Assembly (NCBI RefSeq): GCF_027568515.1
Contig: NZ_JANKZF010000001.1
Coordinates: 434,001-498,000, forward strand
Reading direction: 5' to 3'
Length of the DNA: 64,000 nt
Origin: Arthrobacter sp. HY1533
GTDB lineage: Bacteria > Actinomycetota > Actinomycetes > Actinomycetales > Micrococcaceae
Shown: piece after piece, positions 4,088 through 14,168 of the stretch
How positions within the stretch are numbered: position 1 is the stretch's first letter
Layout: every line of letters starts with the position of its first letter
Translations under genes and position numbers: made by a program
The notes under the pieces: generated by a model
Told to the model about the DNA's origin: nothing
Seen by the model: the letters and a program-made list of their open reading frames with translations, nothing else
Database searches by the model: none

Positions 4088-7000
4088 CTAACTGTGCGCG
4101 GCCCGGGCTGCCTCCCGCCCGGCCCCCAGCGCAAGGTGGGTGTCGGCGGTGGCGGCCAGGCCGGCGTCGTGCGTCACGAGGACCACGGCGGCACCGGACA
4201 GGGCCCCGCGCAGCTCCGCCAGGAGTTCGGCCGACTCGTCCACGCCCAGGTGCGCCGTGGGCTCGTCGAGCAGCACGACGTCGGCTCCCGCCACGAGCGT
4301 GCGTGCCACCGACACTCGGGTGCGCTGACCGCCGGAGAGGTGGTGCCCGCCGGGGCCCAAGCGTGTGTCCAGGCCCGCGGGCAGCGACTCGAACCACGGC
4401 CCCAGGCCCACGGTGCCCAGTGACAGGGCCAGCTCGCCGTCAGTGGGGGCGCTGCCCGCCGGCTTGGCCAGGGCCAGGTTGGCGCGCAGCGTGGAGTTGA
4501 ACAGGTATGCGTCCTGCGGGCACCAGGCGATGCGGCCCAGTGATTCGGCCGTGGCCGGCCGTTCGTTGAGCAGGTAGCTGCCGGCCTCGGGCTTCAGGAA
4601 CCCCAGCAGCACGGCCAGCAGGGTGGACTTGCCGGAGCCGGAGGGGCCGCTGACGCGCCACCACCGCCCCCGTTCGGTGCCGCCGCTAATGCCCGTGAAA
4701 ACGGCATCCCGTGTGTTGGGGTAGCGGGCGGCGATGTCCCTGACGGCAAGGGTTTCCACGGCTTCCGTGGCACCGGCCTCCTCCACTGCTGCCTGGACAG
4801 TTGCGGGTGCGTCAAGCAGGGGCAGGGTGCGGTTCATGAGCGTGGCCAGGGCCGGCAGGGCACTGACGGCCTCGATGTACTGTCCCAGGGGCTCGGCCAG
4901 GGCCAGCATGAGCAGTGCGGCCACGGCGGCCGCACGGGGGTCGACCCCGGAGGTGATGGCAACCAGTGCCGCGGCCACGGCGGCCAGGGATGTCAGCAAC
5001 GTGACCGTGCCCTGGCCCAGGCCGTCGGCCCAGGCCAGCCGGCGCAGCGGCCTGGCAACGGCGGCGTCGGCCCGGCTGAACCGGGCGGCTTCCGCCGGGC
5101 CCACACCGTTGGCGGCGAGCTGGCCCGCGGCGGAAAACAAGGTGGTGGTGCGCCCGGCAAGCCAGACCCGGTGCACGGCGGCGGCGGCGGATGCCCGGCG
5201 CTGTGCCGCCAGCACCAAAACGGGCAGCAGGAGCAGGGCCAGGGCCCCGAGCAGAAGGACCACGCCGGCGGCCTCGGGCACCAGGAGCCAAACTGTCAGC
5301 AGCACAGCGCCGTAGGAAATGACGGCGGAAGGGATGGGGACCACGACGCGCGGCACGGCGTCGCGCAGCTCGTCGACATCGGCCACGAGGGTGCCCAACG
5401 CACCGCCGGAGCGGGTCAGCTTGCCCCAATGGACCACTGAGGAACCCAGCGAGTCCCAGAGCCGCAGGCGGAGATCGGCGGCCCAGCGGAACACGGCGTC
5501 GTGGGTGAGCAGCCGTTCCGAGTACCGCAAGAGGGAGCGGCCAATGCCGAAGGCCCGCACTCCAACAATCAGGGTCAGCAGGTACAGGATGGGCGGCTGC
5601 GCGGCGGCCCAGACAATGAGCCAGCCGGAGATGCCTGACAATGCCGCGGCGCTGAGGGTGGCCAGGGCCGAGACCAGCACGCCCGCGGCGAAGCGGGGTG
5701 AGCGCAGCGGCAGCCGGCGCAGGTGGCGCCAGTGGAAGCGGGCCGGCGGCGCCTCAACGGCTGCGGCGGGGCCCGCCACTGCGACGGCGGGTGACAGCTC
5801 TTCCTGCCCTGTCACGGCCGGGGCAGGCCCGCCTCGCAGCAGGCATACAAGCTGGGGATCGTGGCTTGCCACGGCAACGGCAACGCTCCCCCGCAGGGAT
5901 GCCACCGCCTTGCGGACGGCCTGGGCAGAGACGGGGTCCAGGTGGGCAGTGGGCTCATCCAGGAGCGCCAGCTCCACGCCGGGATCCACGGCAATCCGGG
6001 CCAGGGCACGGGCAACGGCCACGCGGCGCAGTTCGCCGGGGCTGCAGTCCACCACGTTCCGGTCCGCCAGGTGTGCTGCGTTGACCGCGGCAAGGGCATC
6101 CCGAACGGTGCCGGCCCCCAGCTCCAATTGTTGGGGCCCGGCGGCGTAGAGCGCCAACTCCGCCGTGACGGTTTCCTCGGTGAAGGCGGGGTGCTGGGAC
6201 ACGTAGACCACGGCGTCCGGGTTGCGCACGGCCAGCTGTCCCGAAACCGTGGCGGCGCCGGGGCCAGACGCGGGCAGGATGCCGGCCATGGCCGCGAGCA
6301 GTGTGGACTTGCCTGTGCCGCTGGGTGTTGCGAGCACCAGCACGCCGCCGGGGGCCAGCTTGGCCGTGAACCCCGAGACGGCCGCCCCGCCGCGCCCCGG
6401 GTAGCTGACGCCGAAGTCGCGGGCCTCCATGACGGTGCCCGGTGCGGGCGCCGCCATGGGCCGGGAGGGGGTTTCGGCGTCGAGAATTTCGGTGGCGCGG
6501 CGCAGGGCCTCCACGCCGTCCTCGCTGCCGTGGTGCGCGGCGCCGAGGTCGCGCAGGGGGCGGAAGCATTCGGGGGCCAGCATGAGTGCCAGCAGCCCGG
6601 CCTCCAGCGGCATCTCGCCGGCCACGAGGCGCACGCCAATGAACACGGCCACCACAGCCACCGAGATGGTGCTGATGAGCTCCAGGGCCATGGAAGACAG
6701 GAACGCGGTGCGCAGGGTGGCCATGGTGGACTTGCGGTAGGCCTCGCAGACATCTGCCAGGGCCTTGCGCTGTGCCGTGGCGCGGCGCAGGCCCACCAGG
6801 ACCGGCAGGCCGCGGGCCAGTTCCAGCAGGTGGTTGGAGAGCCGGTCCAGGCCGGCGGCGGCCGCCTCGACCCGCTCCTGGGTATGGAAGCCAATGAGGA
6901 TCATGAAGACGGGCACGAGTGGCAGCGTGAGCGCCACAATCAGGGCGCTGACCCAGTCGGACATCAGAATTTGGATCCCCAGCAGCAGCGGCAGCACGGC

Positions 7001-7411
7001 GCAGCTGACAAGGGCCGGAAGGTAGGCGCTGAAGTAGTTGTCCAGCCCGTCGAGCCCGCGGCTGGCGAGCATGCCCTCGGCACCCACGGCACCGCCCTGC
7101 CCGGCGTTGCGCCGGTCCAGGCGGTGCGCCACGAGCCTGGCCCGCAGTTCCTCCTTCGCGCCGAGGGCCGCGCGCCGGGCCAGGATCGACTGGCCCCACA
7201 CGGCACCGGCAAGCAGGACAGCGCCCACACTCCCCTGCACCAGCAGCTTGGCGGTGTCCAACTCCTGGCCGCCGGCCCATTGGGCCACGGCGTGGGCCAG
7301 TGCGCCCAGCCAAAGGACCAGGCCCACGGCCTTGAGTGCGGCCAGCCCGCCCAGGCCGGCAAGTGCCAGCCGGGTGGAGCGTCCGGGAGGAAGTGTGGGT
7401 CGCATGCCCAT
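4088..7411 (-). CDS. cydDC: Fused CydDC thiol-export ABC transporter for cytochrome bd assembly
   Basis: 1107 residues carrying both halves of the heterodimeric CydDC exporter, which moves cysteine/glutathione-type thiols and is needed to assemble cytochrome bd. The first half has six membrane segments and an ATPase domain with Walker A (PSGTGKSTLL), a divergent signature CSPGE and Walker B LLDEPTAHLD. The second half has another membrane domain, Walker [12 protein letters not shown], canonical LSGGQ and LLDEPTAHLG. I start at ATG 7411 rather than an upstream TTG (7429), because a GGAGGT site lies just upstream. The start lies 1 nt past the cydB stop, so translation is likely coupled. Fusion of CydD and CydC is common in actinobacteria. 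Confidence 0.92.
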   Translation of the reverse strand: MGMRPTLPPGRSTRLALAGLGGLAALKAVGLVLWLGALAHAVAQWAGGQELDTAKLLVQGSVGAVLLAGAVWGQSILARRAALGAKEELRARLVAHRLDRRNAGQGGAVGAEGMLASRGLDGLDNYFSAYLPALVSCAVLPLLLGIQILMSDWVSALIVALTLPLVPVFMILIGFHTQERVEAAAAGLDRLSNHLLELARGLPVLVGLRRATAQRKALADVCEAYRKSTMATLRTAFLSSMALELISTISVAVVAVFIGVRLVAGEMPLEAGLLALMLAPECFRPLRDLGAAHHGSEDGVEALRRATEILDAETPSRPMAAPAPGTVMEARDFGVSYPGRGGAAVSGFTAKLAPGGVLVLATPSGTGKSTLLAAMAGILPASGPGAATVSGQLAVRNPDAVVYVSQHPAFTEETVTAELALYAAGPQQLELGAGTVRDALAAVNAAHLADRNVVDCSPGELRRVAVARALARIAVDPGVELALLDEPTAHLDPVSAQAVRKAVASLRGSVAVAVASHDPQLVCLLRGGPAPAVTGQEELSPAVAVAGPAAAVEAPPARFHWRHLRRLPLRSPRFAAGVLVSALATLSAAALSGISGWLIVWAAAQPPILYLLTLIVGVRAFGIGRSLLRYSERLLTHDAVFRWAADLRLRLWDSLGSSVVHWGKLTRSGGALGTLVADVDELRDAVPRVVVPIPSAVISYGAVLLTVWLLVPEAAGVVLLLGALALLLLPVLVLAAQRRASAAAAVHRVWLAGRTTTLFSAAGQLAANGVGPAEAARFSRADAAVARPLRRLAWADGLGQGTVTLLTSLAAVAAALVAITSGVDPRAAAVAALLMLALAEPLGQYIEAVSALPALATLMNRTLPLLDAPATVQAAVEEAGATEAVETLAVRDIAARYPNTRDAVFTGISGGTERGRWWRVSGPSGSGKSTLLAVLLGFLKPEAGSYLLNERPATAESLGRIAWCPQDAYLFNSTLRANLALAKPAGSAPTDGELALSLGTVGLGPWFESLPAGLDTRLGPGGHHLSGGQRTRVSVARTLVAGADVVLLDEPTAHLGVDESAELLAELRGALSGAAVVLVTHDAGLAATADTHLALGAGREAARAAHS

Positions 7412-7412
7412 G

Positions 7413-8447
<1,035 letters not shown>

Positions 8448-8501: not shown

Positions 8502-10088
8502 CTAGTAGGCAAACGCAAGCACATCGTCGCCGCCTTCCCCGCCCGGGCCGTGGCCGCCGTCGTCCTTCTTCTTGGTCGCATCCAACTCCGGCATGGCCGA
8601 GACCACCCCGCCGCGGATGTACTTGGTCAGCAGGACCACTTCCACCACCAGGAGCACGGCGTAAACCGTGGTCAGGGCCACGAGCGAGAAGATGACCTCG
8701 CCGGCGGAGACCCCGGGCGAGACCGCGGCCGCGGTGAACATGAACACCTGGTCGATGCCTGTCATGACGGGGTTGGGGGCCACAACAAAGGGCTGGCGTC
8801 CCATTTCGGTGAAGATCCAGCCGGCGGCGTTGGCGCCGAAGGGGGCCAGGATGCCAATCAGGGCCAGGCGCATGAGCCCCTTGGACTGCGGCACGGTGCC
8901 CTTGCGGGCCAGCCACAGGGCAACGGCCGCCGCGGCAGCTGCGAGCCCGCCGAAGCCGATCATCATGCGGAAGCCCCAGTAGGTCACGGCCATGATGGGC
9001 ACGTAGTTGATTTCCTGCCCGGCACGGGAACCGTACATGGGGTCATCCGGGATGTGGGTGCCGTAGCGTTCCTGGTACTCGGGGACCAGGGTGTTGACGC
9101 CGCGCACTTCGGTGGTGAAGTCGCCATTGGCAAGGAAGGAGAGCAGGCCGGGGATTTCCATGACGGCCACGACGTCGGAGCAGTCGCGGCTGCCGACGTC
9201 GCCAATGGAGAGGACGGAGAAGCCGGTGCCGTCGTGGCAGGCGGCCTCAGCGGCGGCCATCTTCATGGGCTGCTGTTCGAACATCAGCTTGGCCTGGACG
9301 TCTCCGGAGATGGCAGTTCCGGCGAAGGCGATCATGGCCACCACGGCGCCCAGGCGCAGCGACTTGATCCAGACGGAGTGGTCTTTCTTGTCGCGGCCCG
9401 GAATGGTGGCGGATTCGCCCACGATGACGCGGCCGTCGGCGTCCACGGTGTCAATGCCGTCCTTGCGGCGGCGCCACAGCTGGTACCAGGAAATGCCGAG
9501 CAGGAAGCCGCCGGCCACGGCCAGGGCGCCGGTGATGGTGTGGAAGAACGCCACGATGGCCGTGTTGTTGGTGAAGACGGCCCAGGCGTCCACCATGACG
9601 GGGCGTCCGTCGATCATTTCAACACCCACGGGGTGCTGCATCCAGGAGTTGGCCACGAGGATGAAGTAGGCGGAGACAATGGAGCCGGCCACGGCAATCC
9701 ACAGGCAGGCCAGGTGGATCCTTGGCGGCAGCTTCTTCCAGCCGAAGATCCACAGGCCAAGGAACGTCGATTCGACGAAGAAGGCCAGCAGGGCCTCCAT
9801 GGCCAGCGGGGCGCCGAAGACGTCGCCCACAAAGCGGCTGTACTCGCTCCAGGCCATGCCGAACTGGAATTCCTGCACGATGCCCGTGGCCACACCCATG
9901 ATGAAGTTGATCAGGAAGAGCTTGCCCCAAAACTTGGTCATGCGCAGGTACGCCTCGTTGCCGGTCTTGTGCCAGCGCGTCTGCAGGATGGCCACGAGTG
10001 TGCCCAATCCGATGGTGAGCGGCACCATCATGAAGTGGTACACCGTCACAATCCCGAATTGCCACCGCGCTATGTCAAGAGCGTCCAC
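8502..10088 (-). CDS. cydA: Cytochrome bd oxidase subunit I
   Basis: 528 residues; the subunit carrying haems b558, b595 and d. ARWQFGIVTVYHF near the N-terminus contains the conserved haem-ligand His, and GRQPFVV corresponds to the family motif GRQPW, with Phe in place of Trp. I choose GTG at 10088, giving the usual MDALDIARWQFG start, because an AGGGGAAG ribosome site lies just before it; the reading frame is open to ATG 10103, which would place that site inside the gene. First gene of the cyd operon. The upstream region has a TTGACA/TAGAAC promoter covered by two TTCTAC-N5-GTAGAA dyads, so BlaI-type repression is likely. Confidence 0.94.
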   Translation of the reverse strand: MDALDIARWQFGIVTVYHFMMVPLTIGLGTLVAILQTRWHKTGNEAYLRMTKFWGKLFLINFIMGVATGIVQEFQFGMAWSEYSRFVGDVFGAPLAMEALLAFFVESTFLGLWIFGWKKLPPRIHLACLWIAVAGSIVSAYFILVANSWMQHPVGVEMIDGRPVMVDAWAVFTNNTAIVAFFHTITGALAVAGGFLLGISWYQLWRRRKDGIDTVDADGRVIVGESATIPGRDKKDHSVWIKSLRLGAVVAMIAFAGTAISGDVQAKLMFEQQPMKMAAAEAACHDGTGFSVLSIGDVGSRDCSDVVAVMEIPGLLSFLANGDFTTEVRGVNTLVPEYQERYGTHIPDDPMYGSRAGQEINYVPIMAVTYWGFRMMIGFGGLAAAAAAVALWLARKGTVPQSKGLMRLALIGILAPFGANAAGWIFTEMGRQPFVVAPNPVMTGIDQVFMFTAAAVSPGVSAGEVIFSLVALTTVYAVLLVVEVVLLTKYIRGGVVSAMPELDATKKKDDGGHGPGGEGGDDVLAFAY

Positions 10089-10129
10089 TATTCTTCCCCT
10101 CATCCGTAAGATGCAGAATCAAAACAAAC

Positions 10130-10146
10130 TTCTACATTATGTAGAA
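10130..10146. promoter_or_regulatory. Operator-like dyad 1 (TTCTAC-N5-GTAGAA)
   Basis: A perfect 8+1+8 dyad, TTCTACATTATGTAGAA, between cydA and the BlaI-type gene. It fits the TACA/TGTA half-site type bound by BlaI/MecI repressors. It lies where a cydA transcript would begin, given the promoter at 10153-10182. Confidence 0.7.
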
Positions 10147-10152
10147 ATACCA

Positions 10153-10182
10153 GTTCTACCCCGCGTAGAACTTTGCTGTCAA
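10153..10182 (-). promoter_or_regulatory. Predicted cydA promoter with embedded operator-like dyad 2
   Basis: On the minus strand TTGACA (10177-10182) is followed after 18 nt by TAGAAC (10153-10158), a plausible sigma-70-type promoter for cydA. The spacer and -10 are occupied by a second perfect dyad, GTTCTAC-N5-GTAGAAC (10153-10171). Its TTCTAC-N5-GTAGAA core is identical to dyad 1, and the two centres are 24 bp apart. A lone GTAGAG half-site at 10188-10193 continues the same spacing. Confidence 0.65.
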
Positions 10183-10204
10183 AACCTGTAGAGTTGGGCC
10201 ATGG

Positions 10205-10223
10205 GGTACATGTTGTATGTGCC
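10205..10223. promoter_or_regulatory. Imperfect dyad upstream of the BlaI-type gene
   Basis: GGTACAT-N5-ATGTGCC has one mismatch and the same arm-N5-arm architecture as the two dyads at 10130-10171. It lies 34 nt before the repressor start and could be a weaker autoregulatory site. Its relation to the other two is inference. Confidence 0.4.
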
Positions 10224-10256
10224 ACAGTATTTGGACGCTGTGACTTAAGGAAGTAA

Positions 10257-10634
10257 ATGGCAACACTTGGAGACCTCGAAAGGGCCGTCATGGACCTCTT
10301 GTGGGAGCATCAGGAAGCCATCACGGCCAATGTGCTGCGGGACCTTCTTTCGCAGCGACCCTCCGGCGACGATGACGCCACCGAGTCCCGCCCCCTGGCG
10401 GTCACCACGGTGCTTACAGTGCTCTCGCGCCTGGAAAAGAAGGGGCTTGTGGAGCGGGAACGTTCATCACGCCCGCACCGCTACCGCGCAGTGACGTCCC
10501 GCGAGGACCACACGGCGGAGCTCATGCTTGAGGTGCTGGGCTCGGCCCCGGACCGCGAAGCCGTGCTGGCCCGCTTCATTGGCACTGTCAGTGCCGGCGA
10601 GGCGGAAACGCTGCGGAAGCTTCTGGGCCGCTGA
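10257..10634 (+). CDS. BlaI/MecI/CopY-family transcriptional repressor
   Basis: 125 residues, the usual length of this winged-helix family. The N-terminus LGDLERAVMDLLWEH and the later AVTTVLTVLSRLEKKGLVER are the characteristic family segments (the latter is the recognition region), followed by a short dimerisation tail. Family members dimerise on TACA/TGTA dyads and are inactivated by cleavage through a partner M56 protease, which is the next gene here. Ribosome site TAAGGAAG precedes the ATG. It is divergent from cydA across operator-like dyads. In Mycobacterium tuberculosis a BlaI homologue is known to control respiratory genes as well as beta-lactamase; no beta-lactamase gene is visible here, so cytochrome bd is the obvious target. 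Confidence 0.9.
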   Translation: MATLGDLERAVMDLLWEHQEAITANVLRDLLSQRPSGDDDATESRPLAVTTVLTVLSRLEKKGLVERERSSRPHRYRAVTSREDHTAELMLEVLGSAPDREAVLARFIGTVSAGEAETLRKLLGR

Positions 10635-10720: not shown

Positions 10721-11674
10721 ATGTTCTGGACCTCCTGGTTCCTTGCTGTGCTGGCGGTTGTGCTGGCGTGGCCGGTTCCCGTTTTTCTCTCCCGTGCGGC
10801 CTGGCCTGCCCGGGCGCCTTTTGCTGCCATGGTGCTGTGGCAGTCCATAGCCCTGGCCGGTGGGCTCTCCATGATTGGCGCCATGCTCTGCTATGGGCTG
10901 GTGCCGCTGGGCGACAGCCTGGCCAGCGGCCTGCGCGGGCTTGTCCGGGTCTTCCTGGGGCTCGAATCGCTGGACACGCTTGGGTTCCTGCACGCCTTTG
11001 CCCTCAGCGCCGCGGCCCTGCTCACCGCCCACCTCGTGTTCACGCTGTGGCTGACGTACTTCCGCATCCACCGCCAGCGCAGCCGCCACCGCGACATGCT
11101 GCACCTGCTCAGCTCCCCCTCCAGCGACCGGCCCGACACCCTTGTCATCAGCCACCAGGCCCCAGTTGCCTACTGCCTGCCCGGGGGCTCGCGGTCAGTG
11201 ACGGTGCTGTCCGAAGGTCTCCTGGAGCTGCTCTCCCCCGCGGAACTGCACGCGGTCCTGCTGCATGAGGAAACCCACCTGACGCAGCGCCACCACCTGC
11301 TGCTGTGGGCCTTTGCCGCCTGGCGTTCGGCGCTGCCGTGGCTGCCCACCTCGAAGCTGGCCCAGCAATCCGTATCGTCCCTGATTGAGATAATGGCCGA
11401 CGACGTCGCCCTGCGTTCCGTGGGCAAGTCCACCCTGGTCACGGCCATCGCGCTCGTGGCCAGCGGGGCTGCGCAGCTGCCGGCCGACAAGCTGGTGGGC
11501 GGCGACTCCGCTGCGCAAATCGACACCCCGGCCACCACCTCGGCACGGCTTGCCCGGCTGCTGGCCCCCTCCCCCGCACTGTCCCGTGGCATGCAGGCGC
11601 TGATTGTGATCGCAGCCGTGCTGCTCCTGGCCATCCCCACAGCACTGCTGCTGGTGCCGGGCATCCTGCACTAG
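10721..11674 (+). CDS. M56-family membrane metalloprotease (BlaR1/MecR1-like)
   Basis: 317 residues with hydrophobic segments near the N-terminus (residues 5-25, 35-60, 85-115) and one at the C-terminus (about 287-312). The gluzincin motif HEETH, in LLHEETHLTQRHH, is at about residues 187-191, with a candidate third ligand in the IEIMADD segment further on. It lacks the penicillin-binding sensor domain of staphylococcal BlaR1, so the signal is not obviously a beta-lactam. The expected role is to cleave or inactivate the neighbouring BlaI-type repressor in response to an envelope or respiratory cue. TAGGTT at 10709-10714 lies exactly 6 nt before the ATG, so it may also be transcribed separately as a leaderless message. 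Confidence 0.85.
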   Translation: MFWTSWFLAVLAVVLAWPVPVFLSRAAWPARAPFAAMVLWQSIALAGGLSMIGAMLCYGLVPLGDSLASGLRGLVRVFLGLESLDTLGFLHAFALSAAALLTAHLVFTLWLTYFRIHRQRSRHRDMLHLLSSPSSDRPDTLVISHQAPVAYCLPGGSRSVTVLSEGLLELLSPAELHAVLLHEETHLTQRHHLLLWAFAAWRSALPWLPTSKLAQQSVSSLIEIMADDVALRSVGKSTLVTAIALVASGAAQLPADKLVGGDSAAQIDTPATTSARLARLLAPSPALSRGMQALIVIAAVLLLAIPTALLLVPGILH

Positions 11675-11963: not shown

Positions 11964-11976
11964 TATAATTGATGCA
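11964..11976 (+). promoter_or_regulatory. TATAAT -10 element placed for a leaderless transcript
   Basis: A consensus TATAAT at 11964-11969 ends 6 nt before the ATG of the HNH gene, putting the expected transcription start on the start codon. No convincing -35 hexamer is seen. Confidence 0.6.
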
Positions 11977-14168
11977 TGGGCGGTTCGGTGAATTTCCCGG
12001 CTGATCGGGAGGGTTCCTCCACCACAGGTGCTGTGGCGGACCTGCTGGATGCCTTCATCTTTCCCACCATCATTCCTCTGGCCACCGACATCGCGGCTCT
12101 GGAGGGTTTGTCCGATTATCCGGAGCCACTGCTCTCCGGTCACCCGGACAACGAGGCCCCGGATTCCCGTCTGGGCGGAATTCGGGCCCTGCGGGACAGC
12201 ACCACGACGGCCTTGGCTGCGATGCACCGACACAAGAACCAGGGCGCTGCCCTCACCGCGGTGTTGGTGGAACGAATGCTCTCCGCGGCCTTGGCCGAAG
12301 CCACCGTGTTGGAGTTGGATCCGTGGCAGCGCGAAACGTCCCGGGCCGGGGTGCGGGCCGAGATCGCCGCGCTGTTTAACATCACCGAGGGCTACGCCGG
12401 GGCCCTGATGATGGATGCAGCCACCCTGGTCAGGCAGCTGCCCGCGACCATGGCGCAGCTCTCTGCCGGGGTGTTGGGGTGGGAGCATGCGGTCATCATC
12501 GCCGAAGAAACCAGCCTGCTCCGCCAAGACCGCCTACCCCAGGACACCATTGATGCTTTCGAGGGAGTGTTGTTGGGGAAGGCGGAGCATGCCACGCTGC
12601 ACGGTTTCCGGGAGAAGGCCCGCCGCGCGCGGGAACGGGCCTACCCGGAGACCCTGGTCCCCAAGACCCGGCAGGCGTATGAGCGCCGACAGCTGGGGAT
12701 CAGCAGGTCCCGGGACGGGATGGCCTGGCTCAACCTCTACGGCCCCTCCCCAACCATCGAGGCGATCTGGACCCAATGCACCGCCACCGCCCAGGCGGCC
12801 CAAGGCCCCCACGAAGACCGCACCCTCACACAACTAAGGGCCGACATCGCCGCCGCCCTCCTCCTCTGCCAAACCCTGGACGCCAACAACATCCACGCCC
12901 CTGCACCTATCAACGAGGACACCAGCCCGGAACACCCAGCGGAACCAGGCGGCGCCGGCGGGCAGGGCGCCTGGTTTACCACCCTGGCCGACACCGGACC
13001 GGATCCCTGCCAGGGCGGGGCGTTCCCGGACCCCGACCGCCTCGGCCCACACTTCCACTCCTGGCAACTGCCCGTCTTTGACGACCCCGACTACCAGGAC
13101 CCGGCCTTGAGGGAGCCGGACCCGCGGAACCAGCCCGACTGGCCAGTGCCCGGACAGCCACCACACCTCACACCCACCAGCGACAACCCCGCCAATACCA
13201 GCGGTGCCGGCGGCAATGGCGCAGCCGGGCCCGAAAGCAGTCAGAACGGGAGCGGTGTGTCCGGACGTGGTGGTGGGGTGTGGCCTCCACTCCCACAGGT
13301 CACCCCCGTGTTGTTGGTGCCGGCGTTGTCGCTGCTCGGGCTCACGGACGAGCCGGCCTGGATGCCAGGGGCAGGACCGATCAGCATCGAGGTGGCGAAG
13401 TACCTCACCGCGAACGCACCGAGTTTCTACCGGGTCCTGGTGGATCCGATCAGCAACCAACCCCTGGATGCCGCCCCCGATGTCCACCGGGTCACGAAGG
13501 CCATGCAGATCAGGCTGCTGATGAGGGACGAGTACTGCGTGTTCCCGGGCTGCAACGCCAGGGCGGTGAACTGCGAAACCGACCACCTCCAAGCCTTTAG
13601 CACCGGCGGACCCACCACCTACGCCAACCTCGAGAGCCTGTGCAGGCTGCATCACCGGCTCAAGCACCACAAAGACGACAGAACCCGCAACGGCCACGTG
13701 CGCACCGAGCAGTCCTTTGAACGGCAATCCGTCCACCCCCGCGCCTGGAGTCCCCGCAAGACCCCGGAGGGCATCGAGTGGACCAGCCCCACCGGCCACC
13801 AACACCCACCCGAGCCGCAGGACACCCAGCCGCCGGTCTACAACGAAACCCTCAAAACCCTCATCGATGCCACCCTGAAGGCACTCCAACAACGCCAGGA
13901 GTCCGGGAACGACGAGGACGGCACGGGCGCCTACGACCTCACCGCACCGCCCTGGGAATACCGCCCCGACGAAAATGACGGTGGCCCCGAAGCCCACCCC
14001 GACTGGATCGACGAAGACGACATGGACCCCCAGGATCCCCGCTGGGAAAGCTACTTCTGGGATCCCGACAACCTCCCCGAGCCACCGGCCCAAAGCGAGG
14101 AAGAAGTGGAAATCCTGGACCGCATGTCCATCGAAGACTACCTACGCCGCCACCCCAACGCCGCCTGA
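11976..14168 (+). CDS. DUF222 / HNH endonuclease family protein (13E12 type)
   Basis: 730 residues. The N-terminal half is the helical DUF222 region found in the 13E12 repeat family of actinobacteria. A Pro/Asp/Gly-rich low-complexity linker spans about residues 310-440. The C-terminal HNH domain (about 510-570) is complete: CVFPGC zinc pair, then NCETDHLQAF (catalytic DH), GGPTTYANLESLC and HHRLKHH. A long acidic tail follows. Such genes are multicopy, behave as putative selfish endonucleases, and are associated with integration hot spots in mycobacteria; their biological role is not settled. The reading frame looks intact. It sits between TCGA-rich repeats and the parE-type gene and ends 49 nt before the convergent stop. 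Confidence 0.88.
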   Translation: MGGSVNFPADREGSSTTGAVADLLDAFIFPTIIPLATDIAALEGLSDYPEPLLSGHPDNEAPDSRLGGIRALRDSTTTALAAMHRHKNQGAALTAVLVERMLSAALAEATVLELDPWQRETSRAGVRAEIAALFNITEGYAGALMMDAATLVRQLPATMAQLSAGVLGWEHAVIIAEETSLLRQDRLPQDTIDAFEGVLLGKAEHATLHGFREKARRARERAYPETLVPKTRQAYERRQLGISRSRDGMAWLNLYGPSPTIEAIWTQCTATAQAAQGPHEDRTLTQLRADIAAALLLCQTLDANNIHAPAPINEDTSPEHPAEPGGAGGQGAWFTTLADTGPDPCQGGAFPDPDRLGPHFHSWQLPVFDDPDYQDPALREPDPRNQPDWPVPGQPPHLTPTSDNPANTSGAGGNGAAGPESSQNGSGVSGRGGGVWPPLPQVTPVLLVPALSLLGLTDEPAWMPGAGPISIEVAKYLTANAPSFYRVLVDPISNQPLDAAPDVHRVTKAMQIRLLMRDEYCVFPGCNARAVNCETDHLQAFSTGGPTTYANLESLCRLHHRLKHHKDDRTRNGHVRTEQSFERQSVHPRAWSPRKTPEGIEWTSPTGHQHPPEPQDTQPPVYNETLKTLIDATLKALQQRQESGNDEDGTGAYDLTAPPWEYRPDENDGGPEAHPDWIDEDDMDPQDPRWESYFWDPDNLPEPPAQSEEEVEILDRMSIEDYLRRHPNAA

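Follow-up and report, generated by a model that had tools for sequence, protein, structure and literature searches.

Two perfect inverted repeats of the form TTCTAC-N5-GTAGAA (dyads) between cydA and a divergent blaI-type gene are predicted to be operators of the BlaI repressor, and BlaI together with the M48/M56-type membrane protease encoded beside it is proposed to run a regulon for respiration and haem in which the protease relieves repression; judged from sequence comparison, this reading is given a probability of roughly three in four. In relatives the dyads are conserved and are associated with BlaI, with cydA and with a set of other operons. The window, i.e. the whole stretch of 64,000 nucleotides that was analysed, contains the following features of the locus:

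4088..7429, minus strand: cydDC, fused thiol-reductant ABC exporter of 1113 aa (TIGR02857 and TIGR02868, both above cut-off)
7413..8447, minus strand: cydB, cytochrome bd oxidase subunit II (PF02322, 1.5e-101; TIGR00203)
8502..10103, minus strand: cydA, cytochrome bd oxidase subunit I (PF01654, 8.7e-151)
10130..10146, no strand: candidate operator O1, perfect dyad with spacer ATTAT, TTCTACATTATGTAGAA (arms invariant, spacer variable in relatives)
10153..10158, minus strand: predicted -10 hexamer TAGAAC of the cydA promoter
10154..10170, no strand: candidate operator O2, perfect dyad with spacer CCCGC, TTCTACCCCGCGTAGAA (from the sequence and the alignment of relatives)
10177..10182, minus strand: predicted -35 hexamer TTGACA of the cydA promoter
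10257..10634, plus strand: BlaI-family repressor (Penicillinase_R) of 125 aa (Pfam PF03965, 8.4e-21)
10721..11674, plus strand: M48/M56-type membrane metalloprotease of 317 aa (Peptidase_M48, 1.3e-9; HEETH and EIMADD motifs)

Strands and coordinates agree with the divergence of the blaI and protease genes from cydA-cydB-cydDC that had been described in the initial annotation, and its description of a protease without a penicillin-binding sensor domain was borne out, no such domain being present among the Pfam hits of the 317-aa protein. The Penicillinase_R domain spans BlaI residues 4–123 (74.9 bits; cut-off 22.6) and the 125-aa translation contains no cysteine. The only solved relative that was found for this BlaI is PDB 2g9w, which we take to be M. 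tuberculosis BlaI (Rv1846c). A CopY/TcrY match in NCBIfam was weak (26.9 bits against a cut-off of 121.95), and without cysteine the protein cannot carry the CopY-type metal-binding motif; a CopY-type metal repressor was rejected on the score, far below cut-off, and on the lack of cysteine. For the protease, the Pfam score for M48 (38.6 bits; cut-off 20.3) was better than that for M56 (20 bits, 4e-4), which lies below its cut-off of 31. The H, E and H residues and those of the E-x-x-A-D-D motif are invariant in an alignment of 10 proteins; upstream of HExxH, the cysteine of an AYC-P motif is invariant across 17 aligned proteases and could, as a lead only, be part of the sensor. By eye, no beta-lactamase or mecA gene was seen among the genes neighbouring blaI in the window. 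Downstream of the protease gene a 730-aa frame (11976-14168, plus strand) was noted, with a C-terminal part that is HNH-like by eye.

The two perfect dyads reported between cydA and blaI are present, 24 bp apart from start to start; base composition predicts about 1.3e-5 perfect dyads per 153-bp cydA-blaI intergenic stretch. O2 overlaps the predicted cydA -10 hexamer, and O1 lies at or just past the predicted transcription start. The case for the cydA promoter itself is weaker than had been claimed: the TTGACA and TAGAAC hexamers are there, 18 bp apart, and TTGACA was counted on the alignment in 10 of 17 sequences (window and 16 relatives), but no sigma-70 promoter over cydA was called by automatic scan, because the scan demands a final T in the second hexamer. 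A third, imperfect dyad before blaI had also been proposed and had to be given up; its best candidate by eye (GTACATGTTGTATGTGC, 10206-10222) lies where the alignment of the window with 16 relatives shows no conservation, and the site was rejected as an operator in the window. A third perfect dyad is found in 59 of the 80 named loci described below, though not in the window's nearest relatives.

Weight was given to perfect and one-mismatch sites and to conserved position. Sites with up to three mismatches were only mildly more frequent in the window than in shuffled sequences (8 versus 3.6 on average; 2 of 100 shuffles reached this count), and sites with up to two mismatches were rarer in the window's genome than matches to the reversed control (77 versus 209), so that such sites were counted only where their position is conserved. 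A chance origin of the perfect dyads was rejected on base composition, on the genomes of relatives and on control DNA.

Conservation was assessed in 80 named loci from relatives, with titles mostly of Arthrobacter, Pseudarthrobacter or Paenarthrobacter. All 80 have the protease gene after blaI and at least one perfect dyad before it (at sequence level), while cydA is divergent from blaI in 77. Retention of the dyad beside cydA and blaI in related Micrococcaceae had been set beforehand as a test, and it was conserved, with at least two perfect dyads in 77/77 loci with divergent cydA; the first two are spaced 23–25 bp apart in 76 of these. There are 59 loci with three perfect dyads and 18 with two; the 3 loci with a single one are those without an adjacent cydA. 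Among the 216 dyads of the 80 loci the N5 spacer takes 87 forms with fixed arms, so that only the arms are kept, as if they alone were read. Among the best 30 loci from relatives, cydA adjoins blaI in 29, of which 28 have at least two perfect dyads and L030 a single one; the remaining locus (L024) has no cydA alongside and one perfect dyad. One record titled Sporosarcina beigongshangi (L287, NZ_JADHDY010000017.1) contains an Arthrobacter-type cydA-blaI-M56 locus with a BlaI that is 91% identical, and is possibly mislabelled or contaminated.

A perfect dyad before blaI without an adjacent cydA (3/80 loci, and G026) would also be expected if the dyads served autoregulation of blaI and the protease gene only, cydA being a chance neighbour. 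This is very improbable, as dyads persist at cydA genes that lie apart from blaI (L253, L269, L420 and L426): perfect dyads were found 58–92 bp upstream of cydA in G026 and G033, and before the bd-oxidase genes of G175 and G164 (family f36; L420 and L426). All four genes were identified as bd oxidase by Pfam, no BlaI-like sequence was found in the four stretches read around them (3.4–4.5 kb), and no cydA was found in 15 kb around the G026 blaI. These blaI-remote genes make the strongest case that the operators serve cydA besides blaI. Together with the other targets that have the dyad in common (a small membrane protein gene, hmp, atp, hemQ and ccdA), they led to rejection of mere autoregulation.

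The window's genome contains ten dyads with at most one mismatch. Seven are located less than 80 bp upstream of a mechanically called start codon, two of them at cydA; of the other three, two lie inside coding sequences and one has no assigned gene. Perfect dyads precede hmp (Globin, FAD and NAD domains) and the gene of a 119-aa membrane protein without Pfam hit (L047:3416-3775, minus strand; membrane nature judged by eye), which is, from the sequence, a candidate for a new respiratory or haem-related protein. Further dyad sites precede a small gene ahead of atpB (ATP-synthase operon), hemQ (chlorite-dismutase family) followed by ferrochelatase (hemH), and, for cytochrome-c assembly, a thioredoxin-like gene that leads a ccdA-like gene and resB. 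Provisionally, we take hemC to follow hemQ-hemH and the thioredoxin-like gene to be resA. Next to the hmp dyad, and behind an Rrf2-family gene, lies a palindrome like AAGTAGCATTTnAAATGCTACTT that is conserved (L046:1245-1354 in the window's genome, C3; also in same-genus genomes); it is presumably NsrR-like, and two regulators may meet at this promoter.

In same-genus genomes, each target was scored by its best site in the upstream 500 or 1500 bp. This site is a perfect dyad in 23/23 genomes for the small membrane protein and in 21/21 genomes with Hmp for hmp (in G007 and G008 it lies 373–439 bp upstream); it has one mismatch in 23/23 genomes for atp, in 23/23 for hemQ and in 20/23 for the ccdA operon, where at most two are found in 23/23. 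The same-genus atp, hemQ and resA sites thus each carry at least one arm mismatch. The two genomes without an Hmp orthologue contain three perfect dyads, the other 21 four or five. Control DNA (gene bodies and downstream DNA, 325,180 bases) contained no site with at most one mismatch. With relatives included and 30 loci per target, i.e. the best 30 matches from 58 genomes searched, sites with at most one mismatch were present at 27 loci for atp, 29 for hemQ, 26 for ccdA, 24 for hmp and 27 for the small protein. Despite a BlaI match, no dyad within two mismatches was found for hmp in G023 and G025, for atp in G025, G033 and G035, for ccdA in G023, G032, G033 and G035, for hemQ in G032, and for the small membrane protein in G023, G032 and G033. 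The hemQ match of G005 (L108) consists of two overlapping pieces in different frames, from a frameshift or an assembly error.

The dyad tracks BlaI from genome to genome. Of the 58 relatives, 35 have a BlaI of at least 59% identity, and 34 of these contain a perfect dyad; of the 23 without such a BlaI, 22 contain none (p=9e-14; the 59% threshold was chosen after the identities had been seen, and a placeholder of 90 stood for the same-genus identities, whose true values are 85–100%). With one genome per genus the table reads 12/1/1/21 (p=2e-7; G057, of the same genus as G039, was left out). The exceptions are G040, with a 59% BlaI and no perfect dyad, and G033, with a 45% BlaI match and its perfect dyad before its cydA. 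G024 and G027, the two Micrococcaceae of the set that lack a BlaI match, are free of perfect dyads; nothing within two mismatches was found in their hmp upstream parts or in five of their atp, hemQ and ccdA stretches either. A reversed-pattern control gave 24 matches in the same 58 genomes versus 162 for the dyad. In a class survey of 158 genomes, all 20 with a perfect dyad have a BlaI match versus 68 of the 138 others (p=3e-6); these 68 have a BlaI-family match yet no perfect dyad.

This association, and the position of dyads before blaI itself in genomes and families with differing surroundings, argue against a reading in which the dyads are bound by another factor, one for respiration or nitric-oxide stress, and BlaI has a separate role. 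The target set is typical of Rex, NsrR or haem regulators, and the presumed NsrR-like palindrome behind the Rrf2-family gene at hmp points the same way; taken together, we consider such a factor improbable.

Further targets were sought in 30 Micrococcaceae stretches around perfect dyads, a subset of all dyads that was hand-picked from genome listings, with mechanical gene starts and, in six stretches (L254, L268, L271, L276, L281 and L282), with assignment by likeness and not by Pfam scan. Fourteen stretches lie beside genes for respiration, haem or oxidase assembly (by Pfam or likeness): cydA (twice), hemQ, hemA-hemE and hemE; a UbiA-type ctaB, COX2 (191 bp) and SURF1; CopD-CtaG (behind a short frame) and CopC; Sdh_cyt (242 bp) and sucC; and, twice, a phosphoglycerate-mutase-like gene ahead of cytochrome-c assembly genes. 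Other stretches are located between HTH and ABC genes (two), at pyridoxamine-oxidase-like genes (two), at small membrane proteins (two, one near isocitrate lyase too) and at PPK2 (one); for nine no target was assigned. The largest number of perfect dyads in the 58 genomes was 15, in G034 (L254-L265), some of them at oxidase, haem and succinate dehydrogenase genes.

Neighbours of blaI outside Micrococcaceae were surveyed with 1.5-kb flanks at 28 loci among the best 30 of 88 BlaI-matching genomes. A protease match is present at 28/28 loci of this best-scoring set, and at 14/28 a bd-oxidase gene diverges from BlaI at a distance of up to about 0.9 kb, distributed by family as 4/4 in f19, 6/11 in f36 and 4/4 in f38, with none in f35 (0/7), f22 (0/1) and f2 (0/1). 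CydA of the window and the bd subunit of f36 share only 27% identity, so that BlaI is paired with two bd types that are far apart. The dyad of the window is present at 4/4 loci of f19, and two or three copies 19 bp apart are found at some loci of f36. In f38 a different, GTCGTAGAnnnTCTACGAC-like dyad lies 67 bp before blaI at 4/4 loci (L381, L383, L389 and L390). Among the f36 stretches read, 7/18 are at cyd or hemE, 2/18 are about 650–670 bp from a CopD-like gene (one Pfam-tested) and 9/18 have no evident respiratory neighbour; in f19, 0/2 stretches read have one.

In the mechanism that we infer, BlaI dimers would bind O1 and O2 and mask the -10 region and the transcription start of cydABDC; the location of O1 and O2 over these elements is what points to repression, a reading confined to the cydA sites. 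BlaI would probably restrain its own operon too, since the divergent blaI promoter must share the same short stretch. Through the same dyad BlaI would act at hmp, the ATP-synthase operon, hemQ-hemH-hemC, resA-ccdA-resB and the small membrane protein gene, and it is the dyad common to these operons that would make it a regulator of respiration and haem. BlaI control of the bd oxidase, as first proposed, is retained in so far as the dyads track cydA and BlaI in relatives; as an account of the regulator it was too narrow, the target set being wider.

Repression would most likely be lifted by the sensor-less M48/M56-type protease through cleavage of BlaI. By analogy the protease is the natural candidate, because S. 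aureus BlaR1 is reported, in work on the BlaR1 structure, to cleave BlaI directly. The membrane part of the protease might sense failing respiration as a block of the main oxidase, nitric oxide, the quinol redox state or membrane potential, the target list suggesting failing respiration or haem supply as the signal. A repressor BlaI might instead be induced by a ligand bound to BlaI or by another protease, and the protease does lack a sensor domain and is a putative BlaI-cleaving enzyme. Such an inducer appears unlikely, as the protease gene stands beside blaI in 80/80 named relatives, with a protease match at 28/28 loci of other families, and as its catalytic residues are invariant; the lack of cysteine in BlaI further speaks against direct thiol or CopY-like metal sensing.

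Following a proposal made for M. tuberculosis, the pair might instead serve a beta-lactam or cell-wall response, with respiration as a side branch. The family name would fit, and in published work M. tuberculosis blaC is under BlaI, and cydAB and blaI-blaR are induced by amoxicillin-clavulanate. The protease without a penicillin-binding domain stands against beta-lactam sensing, and in the window's genome no gene assigned to a perfect or one-mismatch dyad looks like a beta-lactamase; we would give this reading only a small chance.

The preferred reading, a BlaI/protease pair for respiration and haem, may extend beyond the locus. In a wide set of actinobacteria, the conserved sites suggest that a BlaI/BlaR-like pair regulates the respiratory chain and haem supply, in a family that was named for, and has mostly been studied in, antibiotic resistance. 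More tentatively, and at somewhat less than even odds, the actinobacterial BlaI/M56 pair may be at root a respiration and haem regulator whose protease reads the electron-transport chain and destroys BlaI, with beta-lactamase control coming later; if so, bd oxidase, nitric oxide dioxygenase, haem synthesis, cytochrome assembly and ATP synthase would rise together. A soil-bacterial system would thereby be available that is simple enough to learn what a sensor-less M56-like protease senses, predictions are at hand for many promoters, and the 119-aa membrane protein and some further genes gain a respiratory context.

Compared with known systems, the pair resembles BlaR1-BlaI and MecR1-MecI of S. 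aureus in consisting of a repressor and a predicted membrane zinc protease with HExxH...E, and BlaI-family repressors in general are described as binding inverted-repeat operators. Unlike BlaR1/MecR1, the locus has no penicillin-binding sensor and, by eye, no adjacent beta-lactamase or mecA, and its targets are respiratory. HrrSA of Corynebacterium glutamicum is a two-component system, not a BlaI/M56 pair; it is likewise described as a single actinobacterial regulator for haem and terminal oxidases. In the literature searched, mostly openly accessible, neither a BlaI-cydA locus nor a BlaI regulon for respiration or haem was found outside mycobacteria, and the divergent blaI-M56-cydA arrangement, paired operators and targets in haem, nitric oxide and cytochrome assembly were not found there.

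The remaining likeness is to BlaI-BlaR of M. tuberculosis (Rv1846c-Rv1845c), which shares the BlaI relative with solved structure 2g9w, the Rv1846c identity being our assumption. According to published work, mycobacterial BlaR has no extracellular beta-lactam sensor domain and BlaI binds the promoters of the cytochrome bd and ATP-synthase genes (PMC5473688, which cites Sala 2009 for the binding), BlaI represses Rv1303, which is co-transcribed with ATP-synthase genes, with gel shifts (PMC12565901), and atpH and sigC are members of the regulon (PMC8265638); blaC is named as a target too. That BlaI touches cyd and atp is, by these accounts, already in print for one species, M. tuberculosis, and a respiratory role in Arthrobacter would fit the reports on ATP synthase and, as cited, cytochrome bd. 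As for M. tuberculosis, the ATP-synthase operon would be a target here, to judge by motif only, from a one-mismatch dyad upstream of atpB in 23/23 same-genus genomes. In Arthrobacter, unlike M. tuberculosis, blaI and cydA face away from each other across paired candidate operators, and hmp, hemQ-hemH-hemC and the cytochrome-c assembly genes carry the dyad as well.
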